Shown piece by piece: positions 8,734 through 15,674 of a DNA stretch of 30,742 bases. The notes under the pieces are model-generated. The model was given only the letters and a program-made list of their open reading frames with translations, ran no database searches and was not told the DNA's origin. The translations under genes and the position numbers were made by a program. Position 1 is the first letter of the stretch, and each line of letters begins with the position of its first letter. The stretch is from the IMG/VR virus record IMGVR_UViG_3300039449_000045, positions 1-30,742 of that record. One strand, given 5' to 3'. Source of the DNA: a virus.

Positions 8734-9384
8734 ATGCAAATCAGTTTTAAAGACGATATAGCTGCACTAACCAAAGAACTCAAACAGGTTAAAGAGTCAG
8801 CCATACCAAAGGCTACTGTTCAAGCACTGAATAGGACAGGCACCGGCACAAAGACTGATGCCGTTCGTGAGCTTAGCCGTATCACCGGCATAAAGCAGAA
8901 AGATGTTCGGCCTAAGATCGATGGGCCATCTGATAAGTTCAAACACAAAGCCACCAAGAATAAGATGATGGCAACGGTTGATTCGTCAGAGGGTAGAGCA
9001 TCCAACCTTATTAACTTTGTATCACCCTCATTACGTAAGCCTAATTACTTCAACCAACGCAAAGTATTGAAGAGTGGCAAGCGCGGCAAGTACAAAGCGA
9101 AAGGTGTTAAGGCAAGAGCCTGGCGCAATAGCAAAACATACGATGGTACATTCATTGGCAAGGGCAAAGACTCAGGTAAATATCTAGTCTTTGCTAGAAC
9201 CAGCAGTTCGCGAACGCCAATCAAATCTATCTCTGGCCCATCGATAAGAAATGAATTCAAAGCCGCAGCAATGCAAGCAAAGTTGAAGAGCATGTCAACC
9301 GTTCGCTTTCAAAAGAACATGGCCGCTGCAGTGAAGAACCAGTTGCGCCGAGCAACCGCGAACAGTTCAAGCGCTCAACGTTAG
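8734..9384 (+). CDS. Z: minor tail protein Z-like (gpZ family)
   Basis: A 216-residue, very basic protein. The N-terminal block (AIPKATVQALNRTGTGTKTD, then AVRELSRITGIKQKDVR, about residues 24-68) is the hallmark of the lambda minor tail protein Z family, which helps form the tail end that joins the head. The middle is rich in K/R/G (GKRGKYKAKGVKARAWRN). In lambda Z lies between the FII and U genes. Here it precedes the cos candidate and the terminase genes, at the far side of the predicted genome end. The gene abuts the previous one. Family assignment is good; its job in assembly is inferred from lambda. Confidence 0.8.
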   Translation: MQISFKDDIAALTKELKQVKESAIPKATVQALNRTGTGTKTDAVRELSRITGIKQKDVRPKIDGPSDKFKHKATKNKMMATVDSSEGRASNLINFVSPSLRKPNYFNQRKVLKSGKRGKYKAKGVKARAWRNSKTYDGTFIGKGKDSGKYLVFARTSSSRTPIKSISGPSIRNEFKAAAMQAKLKSMSTVRFQKNMAAAVKNQLRRATANSSSAQR

Positions 9385-9473
9385 CCCTTACACAAGTAAT
9401 TTATAATCGAGAAACCACGATGAACTTTGTTCCCCAAAAAACAGCGCGCGACAGCAATCGCACCAAAAAAAAT

Positions 9474-9517
9474 GGGTCCTTCTGCGACGAATGACATACG
9501 GGTTCGCAGCAGCGCAG
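9474..9517 (+). other. cos: candidate cos site (cosQ- and cosN-like)
   Basis: GGGTCCTTC at 9474-9482 matches the core of lambda cosQ (GGGTCCTTT). Eighteen bases on, TACGGG (9497-9502) and CGCAG (9513-9517) align without gaps to the flanks of lambda cosN. By that alignment the staggered cut would fall after 9500 and after 9512, giving 12-base ends GGTTCGCAGCAG. The site lies just before the Nu1-like gene, as in lambda. Comparison is to lambda sequence from memory. Confidence 0.65.
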
Positions 9518-9566
9518 TATTCGCCTTGTGCGAGCATTTTCAAATCAGAGTCAACGACAACACCCC

Positions 9567-10055
9567 ATGAACAAAAGACACGTTAGCCAAAGCAGTTGCG
9601 CAGAGATCTTTGGAGTTCATCGGAACACTGTTGCCAATTGGCTTAAACAAGGTTGCCCGTTTGTTCAAAAGGCAAATAAAAAACAGGGTAAAGATTGGGT
9701 TTTAGATACGGCTGATGTTGCACAGTGGCGAGCTGATAAAGCTGTTCAAGATACAGTTGGTAATACTGAAACAGCCAGCGAAGATGAACTTCGCCGCCGC
9801 AAGCTTGCAGCTGACACACAACTTGCTGAATTGGAGGTTGGGAAAAAACGAGGCGAGCTCATACCCAAAGAAGAAATAGAACGAAATCTTTCTGCTTTAG
9901 CCATAGCAACCAGAACACGGTTACTCTTGGTGCCAAGGCGTTGTGCAACTCAAATTATTGGCATGACGAATGAAGCAGAGATAAAAGAGATTATCGAGGG
10001 TGAGCAGTTAGAAGCGCTGAGTGATGTTTCTCAATTAGTCATAGATGATGATTGA
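9567..10055 (+). CDS. nu1: terminase small subunit, Nu1-like
   Basis: A 162-residue DNA-packaging protein. The N-terminal winged helix-turn-helix (SSCAEIFGVHRNTVANWLKQ, then GCP) matches lambda Nu1, whose N-terminus reads ADIFGASIRTIQNWQEQGMP. A charged helix follows (EDELRRRKLAADTQLAELEV, then GKKRGELI), as in Nu1 where it links DNA binding to dimerisation and gpA contact. The ATG at 9567 is chosen because the alignment to Nu1 starts there; an upstream GTG (9528) would add 13 residues without family support. The ribosome site is poor. It binds the cos region and directs the large subunit. A cos candidate lies 50 bases upstream. Confidence 0.85.
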   Translation: MNKRHVSQSSCAEIFGVHRNTVANWLKQGCPFVQKANKKQGKDWVLDTADVAQWRADKAVQDTVGNTETASEDELRRRKLAADTQLAELEVGKKRGELIPKEEIERNLSALAIATRTRLLLVPRRCATQIIGMTNEAEIKEIIEGEQLEALSDVSQLVIDDD

Positions 10056-11901
10056 TGATTATGACTATACACCGATTCTTAGGAATATAGGCCGCAACTA
10101 CTTTGCACATTACAAGCCGCCCGAAGCGTTGCTTCCATCTGAATGGGCTGAACAGCATTGTAGAATACCAGCGGGTAATGCATTGCCCGGACCTATTCGA
10201 TTTGCGAATGCGCCTTATCAGGTAGAGCCATTAAATAAAACGGCTGATCCAAATTGTCATCGCATTACTGCAATGTGGGGCGCACAGGTTGGTAAAACAC
10301 AAATGCAACTTATGGCAATTGGCTACTTCATAGCCCATGAGCCTAGCAGCATTATGCTTATGCAGCCTTCTCAATCAGACTTTAATACTTTCCTGAATGC
10401 CAAGTTCGATCCCATGGTTGATGGAACGCCAGCCTTATCAGAAAAGGTTGCAAAGCCCCGTTCTCGTGAGGGTGTCAATAATCAGACAATGAAGTCTTAC
10501 CCTGGCGGCTTCCTAATGGGCGCATGGTCAGGTTCACCAAAAACAATGCGAGGCCGTTCAGCTCCGAAAATCATTTGTGATGAAACGGACGGTTACGAAC
10601 GGACACAAGAAGGCCACCCAGTAAGCTTGATTTGGCAGCGTGCAGCAACGTTTGGTGATCAGCGCTTATTGTTTGAAACGTCTACGCCAACTATAAAAGG
10701 TGAATCTCATATTGAAACCAGCTTTGAAGCTGGGGATAAACGCCGCTGGTTTGTGCCGTGTGGCGATTGCGGCCACAAGCAGTATTTAAAGTGGGGCCAA
10801 GTAAGTTGGCACAAAGACGAAAATGGCGAGCATGACCCAAACACAGCTGTCTATGTTTGCGAAGAATGCGGAAGCGCTTGGGATGATGGCGCTAGATATG
10901 TGGCAATAAGAAAAGGTGAATGGATAGCGGAAAAACCTTTTAAGGGCCATGCAAGCTATCACTTGCCGGAACTGGCGAGTGCGTTTAGAAAATTAAAAGA
11001 CATTGTTGTTTCTTTTCTTGAAAAGAAGGCAATGGGTGATTTGCAAACCTTTACCAACGTATCTCTGGCAGAAACTTGGGAAACTGAAGGCACTAAGCAA
11101 GACCCAGAATTATTGTTTGCTCGCCGTGAACATTATGCTGCCACGGTTCCCAATGGTGCCGTTATCGTTACTGCGGCGGTTGATACTCAAGATGACCGAC
11201 TAGAAATACAGTATGAAGCTTGGGGTGAGGGTCAAGAGAACTGGAAGATTGATTTTGAAATTCTGCGTGGAGACCTCAACAAGCCCGAAATATGGCGGCG
11301 CCTTGATGCCGCATTAGATAGACGATTTGAGCATGAAAGTGGCGTAATGCTGGAAGTCTCCGGTACTGCTATTGATACCGGCGGCCATTTCACCCAGCAG
11401 GTTTATGATTATGTACGCCAACGTGGTTATGGCATTTTCGCCATTAAAGGTTCAAGCACAAAAGATGCGCCTTTAGTTGGCAGGCCCAGCAAAAACAACT
11501 TGGGCCGCGTCAATCTGTTTCAATTAGGCACGCACAAACTCAAGCAGCAAGTAATGCAGCGAGCGGCAATATTAGAGCCCGGCGCTGGATATACTCATTT
11601 TCCAATTAGCGATCAATTCGACAAAGAGTGGTTCTTACAGTTTACATCTGAAGAACTCGTTACCCGCTATGTGAAAGGCGTTCGAAAAGAAGAGTGGCGC
11701 AAAACCCGACCACGAAACGAGGCTTTCGATTTAAGCGGTTATAACCTTGCGTGCCTTTACATTATCAACCCTGACTTTGAACAGTTGAGGGATGAGATTG
11801 AACGCAAGCAATACAAAAATTCAGAACCTAAACCGCCACCAAGTTCAAGCAACAACAACGGCGGGGGCTGGTTAAACACTTCAGGTGGCAGTTGGCTATG
11901 A
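10045..11901 (+). CDS. terL: terminase large subunit, GpA family
   Basis: A 618-residue packaging motor and cos nuclease of the lambda gpA type (641 in lambda). The ATPase domain has the Walker A WGAQVGKTQ (78-86) and Walker B KIICDETDGYE (175-185). A four-cysteine cluster, C239/C242 and C272/C275, looks like a zinc-binding insert common in this family. The C-terminal half is the nuclease domain, opening with AAVDTQDDRLEI (about 374-385) and AIDTGG. It cuts concatemers at cos and pumps DNA into the prohead. The gene overlaps nu1 by 11 bases; ATG 10045 and 10048 are both possible. A glycine/asparagine/serine-rich tail ends the protein. Confidence 0.95.
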   Translation: MMIDDYDYTPILRNIGRNYFAHYKPPEALLPSEWAEQHCRIPAGNALPGPIRFANAPYQVEPLNKTADPNCHRITAMWGAQVGKTQMQLMAIGYFIAHEPSSIMLMQPSQSDFNTFLNAKFDPMVDGTPALSEKVAKPRSREGVNNQTMKSYPGGFLMGAWSGSPKTMRGRSAPKIICDETDGYERTQEGHPVSLIWQRAATFGDQRLLFETSTPTIKGESHIETSFEAGDKRRWFVPCGDCGHKQYLKWGQVSWHKDENGEHDPNTAVYVCEECGSAWDDGARYVAIRKGEWIAEKPFKGHASYHLPELASAFRKLKDIVVSFLEKKAMGDLQTFTNVSLAETWETEGTKQDPELLFARREHYAATVPNGAVIVTAAVDTQDDRLEIQYEAWGEGQENWKIDFEILRGDLNKPEIWRRLDAALDRRFEHESGVMLEVSGTAIDTGGHFTQQVYDYVRQRGYGIFAIKGSSTKDAPLVGRPSKNNLGRVNLFQLGTHKLKQQVMQRAAILEPGAGYTHFPISDQFDKEWFLQFTSEELVTRYVKGVRKEEWRKTRPRNEAFDLSGYNLACLYIINPDFEQLRDEIERKQYKNSEPKPPPSSSNNNGGGWLNTSGGSWL

Positions 11902-12098: not shown

Positions 12099-13588
12099 AT
12101 TGGCTTGATAAAACAATCTTATCTTTTGCGCCTAAGTGGGGCGCTGAGCGTGCTAGGAATAGAGTTCTCGCTGAGCAATTTTTAAGTTACGACGCTGCGC
12201 AGCCTGGAAGAACCCGTAAAATGAAAGCAGACCATAGAAGTGGTGATACGGCTGTTCATACGGCTGGTCGTTCAATTCGCGGTCAAGCTCGTTATCTAGA
12301 TGAAAACCACGATTTGGTTGTTGGCCTACTAGATAAGTTAGAGCAAAAAGTTGTTGGTCCTCGTGGCATATCGGTTGAACCAATGCCGTTAACCGTTACG
12401 GGTGAAAAGTCTGAGGACTTTGCAAAAGAAATATCTATGTTCTTTGATGAGCTTTCCATTGCGCCCGATACTACAGGTGAATACTCTCGAGCCGAAATGG
12501 AACGCTTAGTTTGCCGTTCATGGCTCCGTGATGGTGAGGTCTTCGGCAAGTTTGTAGAAGGCAATGTTTCGAGCTTCAACCACAATACATCTATACCCTT
12601 AAGTGTGGAATTATTGGAAGCAGATTTTTTGCCGTTTGACGATTTCCCTAGAAACAAAATAATCCAGGGTATTGAGCGAAATGATTGGGGTCAGCCTAAA
12701 GCTTATCACTTTTATAAACAGCATCCCGGCAATACATGGAAAGTTAACACGCAAACTGTTCCTGTACCTGCTGACCGTGTGATGCACTTAAAACATACGA
12801 ACCGACTAAGACAATCACGCGGCATTTCCATTCTTCACGCGGTTATCACTCGCCTAGAAGATTTGAAAGATTATGAAGAATCAGAGCGTGTTGCGGCACG
12901 TATCTCTGCGGTTTTGGCGGCATATATCAAAAGACCTGATGGACCAGGATTAGGTGGGAAACCAAATGGCGATCGCACTTTTCAGATGGCTCCGGGAATG
13001 GTTTTTGATGGGCTTATGCCCGGCGAAGAGGTGGGAACGGTGGAAAGCAACCGCCCCAGCACATTGTTGCAGCCCTTTAGAGATTCAATGTTACGCGCTG
13101 TAGCCAGCGGAACACGAAGCACATTTTCAAGCATTTCTGGTCAGTACGATGGCTCTTACTCTTCGCAACGACAGGAAATGGTTGAAGGCTATGCTGGTTA
13201 CGAGGCACTTCAGGAAATATTCATTTCCAAATGGTCAAGAAAGTTCTATCGCCGAGCACTTCAAATTGGCATAGCTACTGGCCGACTAAACCCACCTTTG
13301 GATATTGATGAAAGAACTATTTTTAACGCCGTTTATATCGCTCCAGTAATGCCTTGGATCGACCCAGATAAAGAGACGAAAGCGAATGAGCGGCAAGTTA
13401 AAGCAGGATTTAACACTGAGGCTAATATCATTCGTTCTAAGGGGCTTAACCCGCAAGAGGTTAAGAAACAGCGTGAGCAGGAAGTTAAAGAGAACTTAGA
13501 TCGAGATCTAATATTTAGTTCAGACGCTCGCCACGAAATACAACAGCAACAAACACCAAAAGGGGCGGACAATGCCACAGACAAATAA
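12095..13588 (+). CDS. B: portal protein, lambda gpB family
   Basis: A 497-residue portal protein (lambda B is 533), the dodecameric ring through which DNA enters and leaves the capsid. Family features include the early SYDAAQPGRTRKMKADHRSG block (about residues 30-50), VVGLLDKLEQKVVGPRGISV (about 74-93), and the WLRDGEVFGKFVEG strand pair (about 143-156). The C-terminal stem and crown region includes SSQRQEMVEGYAGYEALQ. The C-terminus is charged and glutamine-rich. It overlaps gpW by ATGA and the protease-capsid gene by 17 bases. Confidence 0.95.
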   Translation: MNWLDKTILSFAPKWGAERARNRVLAEQFLSYDAAQPGRTRKMKADHRSGDTAVHTAGRSIRGQARYLDENHDLVVGLLDKLEQKVVGPRGISVEPMPLTVTGEKSEDFAKEISMFFDELSIAPDTTGEYSRAEMERLVCRSWLRDGEVFGKFVEGNVSSFNHNTSIPLSVELLEADFLPFDDFPRNKIIQGIERNDWGQPKAYHFYKQHPGNTWKVNTQTVPVPADRVMHLKHTNRLRQSRGISILHAVITRLEDLKDYEESERVAARISAVLAAYIKRPDGPGLGGKPNGDRTFQMAPGMVFDGLMPGEEVGTVESNRPSTLLQPFRDSMLRAVASGTRSTFSSISGQYDGSYSSQRQEMVEGYAGYEALQEIFISKWSRKFYRRALQIGIATGRLNPPLDIDERTIFNAVYIAPVMPWIDPDKETKANERQVKAGFNTEANIIRSKGLNPQEVKKQREQEVKENLDRDLIFSSDARHEIQQQQTPKGADNATDK

Positions 13589-15674
13589 AAGTTGGTACGA
13601 GTTTAATGCGCTTGCTAATGGCAACGCTGAAATCTACGTATACGACGAAATTGGATTTTGGGGTATTACGGCAAAAGATTTTGCCCGCGACCTAAAAGAA
13701 ATCGATCCGAAAAGTGAAATTAACCTACGCATTAACTCACCGGGCGGCTCAGTAACAGACGGTATTGCTATCTTCAATTTACTGAAAAACCACAAAGCCA
13801 CAGTGAACGTTTACGTTGATGGGCTTGCGGCTTCCATGGCATCTGTTATTGCAATGGCCGGTGACACGATCACCATGCCGGAAAATGCATTGATGATGAT
13901 TCACAACCCTTGGGGCGGTGCAATGGGAGATGCTGATGAGCTGCGTAAAACAGCCGACGTTCTCGACAAAATGAAGGTTGCACTTATATCTGCTTACTCA
14001 TCCAAAACTGGTCTGGACGCTGATGCTATCGCTGAAATGATGACAGCAGAAACATGGATGACCGGATCGGAAGCATTAGAAATAGGATTCGCCACACAGG
14101 TTGTTGATGAAGTGCAACTTGCAGCTTCTTTTGATCTCGACAAGCTAAACCAGTTCCAAAGCGGCGTTAGAGAAAAATTCAACTCTGCTAAAGAAACCAG
14201 TTCAACCATGACGATTGACGTTAAGGTTGCTGGCTTAGATGACGCTGAAAAGCGGCTCAAAGACTTCCACCAAAACGTTATGAAATCGGCCCCAGCCGAC
14301 AAACCAAAAGAGGAAATTAGTATGCCAGAAGCTACTAACACTCCGGCTACAAATGTGGCCGATAAAGAAGCCCTGCAAGCTAAAGCAATTGCAGACTACA
14401 AAGCAAAAGAGGCAAAGAGAAAAGAGGGTATCAATTCTCTGTTTGCTTCATTCAAGCACCAGTATCCTGAATTACTTGCTTCATGCCTTGAAGATGAAGA
14501 ATGCACCAAAGAGCAGGCATCAGCAAAGTTGCTTGATGAACTTGGTAAAGAACAGGAGCCTCAGCAAGGTGGTTTTAACGCAGCCGTTTACGCTGGTAAC
14601 GGCGACATTGTTAAAGAGTCAATGTCTGCCGCAATCAAAGCAAAAGCGGGTATCAAGGTAGAACAGAATGAACTTACCCACGATAACCCTTATCGTGCAA
14701 TGAGTCTTATGGAAATGGCCCGGGCTGCTTTAAATGAAAAGGGTGTGGGAACTGCGGCTTACGGAGACCGCATGTCTCTCGTCGGTGCAGCTTTTACACA
14801 CGGGAATAGTGATTTTCCTCATGTTCTTGCTGACGTAGCAAACAAGTCTATGCTCCAAGGCTTTGAGGAGGCTAACGAGACTTTTCAACTTTGGACTCGC
14901 CAAGGCTCTTTGTCCGATTTTAAGGTTTCAAAGCGTGTAGGTCTTAATGACTTTGCCTCTCTTCCTGAAGTTCGTCCAGGCGCTGAGTATACTTATGGAA
15001 CTGTCGGTGAACGCGCGGAGAACATTGCACTGGCTACCTACGGCAAGCTTTTTTCAATCAATCGTCAAGCTATTATCAACGACGACTTGGCCGCCTTTAC
15101 GCGCATCCCTTTCCTTATGGGTCAGGCCGCCATTCGCACTGTCGGTGATCTGGTTTATGCGATTCTGACAAGTAACCCTACAATGTCAGATGGAAACTCA
15201 CTTTTCCACGCGGCCAACCATAAAAACCTACAAACAGGTGCAGGTTCAGCTTTGCAAGTTTCGTCGCTAGAGGCTGCTCGTACGGCCATGCGCAAGCAAA
15301 AGCTTGATAAAGGTAACGCGCTCGGTATTCGTCCTGAGTTCTTACTTGTTCCTGCAGCACTTGAAAGCAAGGCTACAAAGTTAATGCGTGACACGGTTCT
15401 TCCTGGTGCGTCTAACGGTGAAAGCAATCCGGTTTCAGGTATGGCACAAGTTATCTCTGAGGCTCGCCTAGATGATAGCAGCGCCACTGCTTGGTATCTT
15501 GCTGCAGGCGCTATGTACGACACTATTGAGGTTGCATATCTTGATGGTAATAACTCTCCATTCCTTGATCAGATGGATGGTTTTACTGTTGACGGTACTA
15601 CTATGAAGGTTCGCATTGATGCAGGTGTAGCCCCACTTGAGTATCGCACCCTTTACAAAGGAGTAGGCGCTTAA
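13572..15674 (+). CDS. ClpP-like prohead protease fused to major capsid protein
   Basis: A 700-residue fusion. Residues 1-185 are a ClpP-type serine protease: INSPGGSVTDG (54-64), nucleophile S88 in GLAASMAS and H111 in MMIHNPWG. Residues about 186-340 are charged and helical, like a scaffold or delta domain. Residues about 345-700 are an HK97-fold major capsid protein of the Mu gpT kind, with YGKLFSINRQAIINDD and NPVSGMAQVISEARLDD blocks. The protease would remove the scaffold region during prohead maturation. An in-frame ATG at 14322 with GAGGA seven bases before it probably also starts a shorter scaffold-capsid product, much as Nu3 is made inside lambda C. Similar protease/capsid fusions are known in other phages. 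Confidence 0.92.
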   Translation: MPQTNKSWYEFNALANGNAEIYVYDEIGFWGITAKDFARDLKEIDPKSEINLRINSPGGSVTDGIAIFNLLKNHKATVNVYVDGLAASMASVIAMAGDTITMPENALMMIHNPWGGAMGDADELRKTADVLDKMKVALISAYSSKTGLDADAIAEMMTAETWMTGSEALEIGFATQVVDEVQLAASFDLDKLNQFQSGVREKFNSAKETSSTMTIDVKVAGLDDAEKRLKDFHQNVMKSAPADKPKEEISMPEATNTPATNVADKEALQAKAIADYKAKEAKRKEGINSLFASFKHQYPELLASCLEDEECTKEQASAKLLDELGKEQEPQQGGFNAAVYAGNGDIVKESMSAAIKAKAGIKVEQNELTHDNPYRAMSLMEMARAALNEKGVGTAAYGDRMSLVGAAFTHGNSDFPHVLADVANKSMLQGFEEANETFQLWTRQGSLSDFKVSKRVGLNDFASLPEVRPGAEYTYGTVGERAENIALATYGKLFSINRQAIINDDLAAFTRIPFLMGQAAIRTVGDLVYAILTSNPTMSDGNSLFHAANHKNLQTGAGSALQVSSLEAARTAMRKQKLDKGNALGIRPEFLLVPAALESKATKLMRDTVLPGASNGESNPVSGMAQVISEARLDDSSATAWYLAAGAMYDTIEVAYLDGNNSPFLDQMDGFTVDGTTMKVRIDAGVAPLEYRTLYKGVGA
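14310..14324 (+). promoter_or_regulatory. internal ribosome binding site and in-frame start in the fusion gene
   Basis: GAGGA (14310-14314) is followed after seven bases by ATG 14322, in frame with the fusion gene at Met251. Initiation here would give a 450-residue scaffold-plus-capsid protein without the protease, allowing many capsid copies per protease. Confidence 0.55.

Follow-up and report, generated by a model that had tools for sequence, protein, structure and literature searches.

In lambda-like phages the CG flanks of the nicks at cos are conserved, and most of these phages possess a complex cosB consisting of R3, R2 and R1 together with an IHF site, N15 being an exception (PMC4669245). 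R3 is located at bp 50–65 in lambda and at bp 48–60 in N15 (PMC9026076). A stretch of 30,742 nucleotides (the window; positions 1 to 30,742 of IMG/VR virus record IMGVR_UViG_3300039449_000045) was compared with these systems, following an earlier note which had suggested a lambda-type cos with 12-base ends at positions 9474–9517. The region 9474–9565 can be regarded with high confidence as the cos of a temperate-type tailed phage which would package its DNA in the style of lambda, with 12-nt 5' overhangs. The elements and genes given below for 8734–11901 of the window are on its + strand.

Elements of the cos region and neighbouring genes

The packaging-termination signal cosQ, GGGTCCTTC, can be read directly at 9474–9482 and is identical across 8 bases with GGGTCCTTT of lambda and N15. 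The last top-strand bases of the right arm are CATACG at 9495–9500, including the TACG of cosN (9497–9500), and the top-strand nick is predicted after 9500. The cohesive end of cosN, GGTTCGCAGCAG at 9501–9512, is the predicted 12-nt 5' overhang, as judged from the ends of contigs L006, G013 and G014 (see below). CGCAG at 9513–9517 stands right after the predicted bottom-strand nick (after 9512); another CGCAG is present inside the 12-mer (9505–9509). Both predicted nicks are flanked by CG dinucleotides (ACG^...^CGC). The proposal of a lambda-type cos at 9474–9517 is borne out, since all its elements are in place and the strict pattern tested (cosQ + ACGGG + 10 nt + CGC) occurred once in the window, whereas 1000 dinucleotide shuffles had no copy; for a loose cosQ-cosN pattern the expectation is 0.016 per shuffle. 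GGGTCCTT alone, found once with 0.49 expected per window, is not significant.

A Nu1-like gene had been claimed directly downstream, and is indeed present: terS (9567–10055) encodes a terminase small subunit of 162 aa (PHROG 57, E=2.6e-30), which scores 31.1 bits with Pfam Phage_Nu1 (cut-off 30) and matches structures of lambda gpNu1 (PDB 1j9i, E=5e-5). Between the predicted left end at 9501 and the start of terS there are 66 bases. The next gene, terL (10045–11901), encodes a gpA-like terminase large subunit of 618 aa (PHROG 15, E=6e-218) with the Pfam domains GpA_ATPase and GpA_nuclease; gpA-like TerL proteins are the nicking and translocation enzymes. Beyond terL follow genes for a lambda-family portal, a ClpP-protease/capsid fusion, decoration and tail proteins; the fusion is a single gene of 700 aa (13572–15674), in which a ClpP-like head protease is joined to the major capsid protein. 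Upstream of cos are replication genes, an integrase, endolysin, holin and, as the last gene of the right arm, a gene for a lambda gpZ-like tail completion protein (8734–9384; Pfam Minor_tail_Z, E=7e-28; also PHROG 27, tail completion/Neck1). This gene would lie at the virion end opposite to the other head and tail genes, and a homologue is found at the same place before cos in Alteromonas phage P24. The gene order is that of lambda: cos follows the lysis end and precedes terS.

The gap between cosN and cosB contains an I2-like spacer core, TTGTGCGAGCATTTT at 9526–9540, which is invariant in seven left-arm relatives and shows 1–2 changes in the cos of the probable satellite described below. A candidate for R3, the single TerS site of cosB, is GTCAACGACAACACCC at 9550–9565, i.e., +50 to +65 from the left end. 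The seven relatives which share the TerS of the window (window included) have an invariant run of 22 nt from +50, GTCAACGACAACACCCCATGAA; this invariance alone is no proof of a site, since longer invariant runs occur inside genes. Contig L050 and the satellite contigs remain similar from +1 to +47 but have T-rich sequence in place of +48 to +65, a replacement which accompanies a swapped DNA-binding half of TerS. The stretch 9550–9565 is thus a probable R3, i.e., the TerS-binding site, its position being drawn from lambda and N15. Lambda-style repeated R sites were searched for in the window and not found, and the 66 bases between left end and terS contain no repeated R-like motif of an R3-R2-R1/IHF cosB. 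The cosB of the window would probably be N15-like, with one R3-like site, as opposed to the three R sites of lambda. Sequences resembling GGTTGTTTA are found at the R3 position in N15, P24, Marinomonas and others; a reverse-orientation match in the window at +51 (6/9) was considered too weak to claim. A reverse R3-like motif, TAAACAACT (8/9), was seen in Acinetobacter phage Alexa (L018) at about +52 to +60 from its predicted left end.

Conserved frame and ends of related phages

The nick served as the anchor for a manual alignment of 34 cos sites, ranging from those of lambda and N15 to those of marine prophages; the following counts therefore describe the frame and are no test of it. cosQ is always upstream of the nick, as GGGTCC or AGGTAC, mostly followed by TT, and 25–30 bases separate it from the nick (30 in lambda). 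The "27 bases" of the earlier note are this same distance in the window, from the first base of cosQ to the top-strand nick before 9501. The top nick reads G^GG in 34/34 sites, with C preceding that G in 24/34; the overhang spacing is 12 or 13 nt (one site can be read as 11 or 12); and the bottom nick is followed by C (34/34), G (32/34) and C (33/34). In the two cosQ alleles (9474–9478 in the window) positions 1 and 5 are coupled, with G..C in 25 and A..A in 9 sites. TACGGGTWCGCAGCAG was found in 37 IMG/VR contigs: with cosQ upstream 12 of 12 continue with CGC, without cosQ 1 of 25 (Fisher 7e-9).

A DNA similarity search of 9000–10300 in phage records had P24 as its sole match, in the right arm only. 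The TerL alignment search of GTDB genomes yielded 18 relatives, none near enough for naming the host; of 395 genomes in the family to which a Thalassotalea MAG belongs, two contain the cos 20-mer. In the literature searched, no description of the cos of Jilinvirus or Foxunavirus was found.

The ends of IMG/VR contigs stood in for read pile-ups. The contig of the window continues through cos. Its sister contig L006 starts exactly at the 12-mer of the window (GGTTCGCAGCAG|CGCAG), and another sister, L003, which has a different 12-mer, starts at the homologous base (GGTAATTTGCAC|CGCAG); both starts agree with the earlier prediction of a virion left end at about 9501. Contigs L167 and L181 start exactly at GGTACGCAGCAG|CGCA; their start sequences are identical and may represent one phage met twice. 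GGTWCGCAGCAGCGCA is present in 58 contigs, of which three (L006/L046, L167, L181) begin at its first base (0.004 expected, P 9e-9), all with a cos-like flank. Among the 21 contigs of TerL relatives whose first base lies upstream of terL, GGT is the start of six, L003 and L006 among them (P 4e-7).

Two of these six, G013 and G014, are nearly complete by length. G013 (43,303 bp) begins with GGTAATTCGAAC|CTCG and ends with ...GGGTCCTCC...CACG|GGTAATTCGAAC; G014 (45,902 bp) begins with GGTGCGGGACGC|CGCG and ends with ...GGGTCCTTCC...TGCG|GGTGCGGGACGC. Their 12-bp terminal repeats adjoin cosQ and CG^...^C. End repair of a 12-nt 5' overhang leaves a 12-bp repeat at both ends, and the repeats of G013 and G014 therefore fit filled-in overhangs of this kind. 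The 12-base end GGTTCGCAGCAG that had been predicted is supported by these repeats, which stand at the same place, and by the identical 12-mer at the start of L006. Contig ends on the right-arm side were looked for in the closest IMG/VR group (right-arm patterns, ...GCAGCAG), and none was found.

The record ends of lambda and N15 show the same frame, as do the isolate records of PPpW-3 (GGGGCATAGACTC) and FoX2 (GGTCACCTGAACC), here with 13 bases. Isolates with a related terminase thus appear to have 13-nt ends, and a length of 12 is not universal. The deposited ends of Arya, KA2-1, MQ-4 and Mano (KX231828, PQ571296, ON853583, MT708550) are a few bases off the frame, have extra sequence after the overhang or carry a 7-base annotation; ends of 13 bases fit all four records. 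For Mano, the annotated cohesive end of 7 bases is at odds with the frame of its family (13 bases by alignment) and was excluded as evidence.

Arm exchange, packaging and alternative explanations

Identity between the window and L050 is 92% from -767 to +38 and about 61% thereafter; for L002 and P24 it is 92% from -762 to +20, beyond which they cannot be aligned; L004 and L005 are 96% identical from -1 onward and unalignable just upstream. In these comparisons (9467–9540 of the window with L050, L002, L004, L005 and P24) homology switches within tens of bases of cos, and left and right arms are therefore exchanged there. Common sticky ends could join the arms of different phages in a mixed infection; the same outcome would be expected if the short conserved block recombined or if packaging took place between tandem prophages, and the three routes fit the data equally.

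In the proposed packaging scheme, every step of which is modelled on lambda and N15, the Nu1-like TerS would bind the R3-type site at about 9550–9565 and position the gpA-like TerL on cosN. The predicted nicks of TerL, after 9500 on the top strand and after 9512 on the bottom strand, would leave 5' overhangs of 12 nt; the cut of the window itself and the strand polarity of its overhang are predicted from the ends of relatives and from lambda and N15. The virion left end would be GGTTCGCAGCAG on the top strand and the right end ...CATACG with the complementary overhang. Packaging should proceed from 9501 through terS and terL to the head and tail genes, and should stop at the next cos on the concatemer, recognised through cosQ at 9474. 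On infection, the ends would anneal and the genome would circularise.

A cos of the same kind with one nick displaced by one base would have an end of 13 nt (GGGTTCGCAGCAG or GGTTCGCAGCAGC), like Jilinvirus, PPpW-3 and FoX2, and would be in keeping with the nearest isolates by TerL (~50% identity), which have 13-bp terminal repeats or a 13-base spacing. This appears quite improbable for the window: L006 and L003 both start with GGT, not with GGGT, in the window and its group the 12-mer is immediately followed by CGC, and the repeats of G013 and G014 are 12 bp long. Even less probable is the explanation that the contig ends are assembly breaks at a mosaic junction and the conserved block a recombination joint. 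It draws on the switch of homology within tens of bases of the nick; since arms were exchanged there, an assembler could break contigs at cos without a physical end. The 12-bp repeats at both ends of the nearly complete G013 and G014, the fixed ends of isolate records and the adjoining Nu1/gpA terminase would all be left unexplained, and such a joint is more readily understood as something that cos brings about.

Headful (pac) packaging, with the likeness to the cos of lambda a decayed relic or due to chance, is extremely improbable. The window does continue through the site, and a lone GGGTCCTT would be expected about once in two windows; against this stand the absence of the full pattern from all shuffles, the spacing and flanks kept across dozens of phages, a terminase of the cos-cutting Nu1/gpA kind and the fixed contig ends in relatives. 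The preferred reading is still a lambda-style cos with 12-nt ends.

A probable satellite and comparison with known systems

A near copy of this cos was found in a probable phage satellite, L060 105–10187 (IMG/VR 3300026101_000025), with further representatives in L087, L056 and L079. In L060 and L087 the element measures about 10.1 kb and is bounded by 17-bp repeats, one of which is at the 3' end of tRNA-Leu; a tRNA-Leu(TAA) at the insertion was called in L060 and L079. Its genes include an integrase, an AlpA/excisionase-like gene, a capsid protein (385 aa, 32% identity to the capsid half of the fusion in the window), a full-length tape-measure protein (61–65% to that of the window; in L087 it is split), cos and TerS. 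A TerL, a portal and the other head and tail genes sought gave no match, either in family scans or in tblastn with 15 proteins of the window. Between the cosQ-cosN of the satellite and that of phage L002 there is about one base of difference. Its TerS has 38% identity with that of the window in residues 1–60 and 60% in 81–157; with L050 the values are 62% and 43%, respectively. It is probably a hybrid of a re-targeted DNA-binding half and a window-like C-terminal half, as far as sequence identities indicate, and such a compatible C-terminal half with a different DNA-binding half fits a redirection of the TerL of a helper.

The layout described for Gram-negative PICI consists of a helper-like cosQ-cosN, a different R3 and a TerS/Rpp-type protein by cos, with no TerL (PMC9026076), and L060 and L087 have this layout. 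The described layout is without a capsid or tape-measure gene of its own, whereas L060 and L087 have both. That this tRNA-Leu satellite of about 10.1 kb copies the cos of the group, redirects the TerL of a helper and supplies its own shell and tail ruler is a proposal for which belief and doubt are evenly balanced; induction and packaging would be driven by the helper. No satellite with this gene set was described in the literature searched, whose scope took in neither journals behind a subscription nor the principal paper on marine virion-packaged elements. It would appear to be a novel lead, of uncertain novelty. Possibly another satellite is L174 (IMG/VR 3300044262_000078), about 11,900 bases into which a cos is found on the - strand (GGGTCCTTCC...GTGCG^GGTACGCAGCAG^CGCA); a Toprim/DUF5906 primase gene follows, and the available stretch has no TerL.

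The ends of an uncultured marine phage group can thus be fixed to the base from sequence alone, and the ends of public virome contigs can confirm such predictions without reads. The general frame (GGGTCCTT or AGGTACTT, 25–30 bases, G^GG, 12/13 nt, ^CGC) should be usable for finding ends in other records. Comparison of relatives located an arm exchange at cos, and the probable satellite, which is the part of specialist interest, makes the roles of cosN, R3 and both TerS halves directly testable.

The cos of the window is ordinary in kind and well supported, with its own overhang and probably an N15-like cosB. Jilinvirus, PPpW-3 and Foxunavirus, which have the closest isolate TerL (~44–52% identity), share cosQ and the CG^...^CG frame, but possess 13-base ends (e.g. 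GGGGCATAGACTC, GGTCACCTGAACC) instead of 12. P24 (MK241539; record circular, ends unmarked) reads TTACG^GGTACGCAGCAG^CGCA, and over the 1.1 kb that end at the nick its right arm is ~68% identical with the window; it differs in a terS/terL left arm of another lineage and in the cosQ allele AGGTACTT. With lambda the window has in common the order of cosQ and cosN, CG at both nicks, the 12-nt spacing, a TTCGC...ATTTT I2-like segment and the Nu1/gpA terminase. The alignment to lambda given in the earlier note holds for the 8 bases of cosQ and for the frame; it does not extend to the overhang, where only 5 of 12 bases are common (GGGCGGCGACCT in lambda, GGTTCGCAGCAG in the window), which means a lambda-type cos with its own sticky-end sequence. 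For the IHF-bent cosB of lambda with three R sites there is no room between cosN and terS. N15 (Ravinvirus) resembles the window in cosQ (GGGTCCTT), in CG^12 nt^CG, in a terS that starts less than 100 bases from the left end (at base 89 in N15 and at base 67 in the window) and in one TerS site of the R3 type around +48 to +65, which in the window is the candidate; it differs in the overhang (GGGCGGCGTCCG, in the window GGTTCGCAGCAG), in the sequence of R3 (GAGGTTGTTGTTTA at +48) and in the distance from cosQ to the nick (30 bases, in the window 27).
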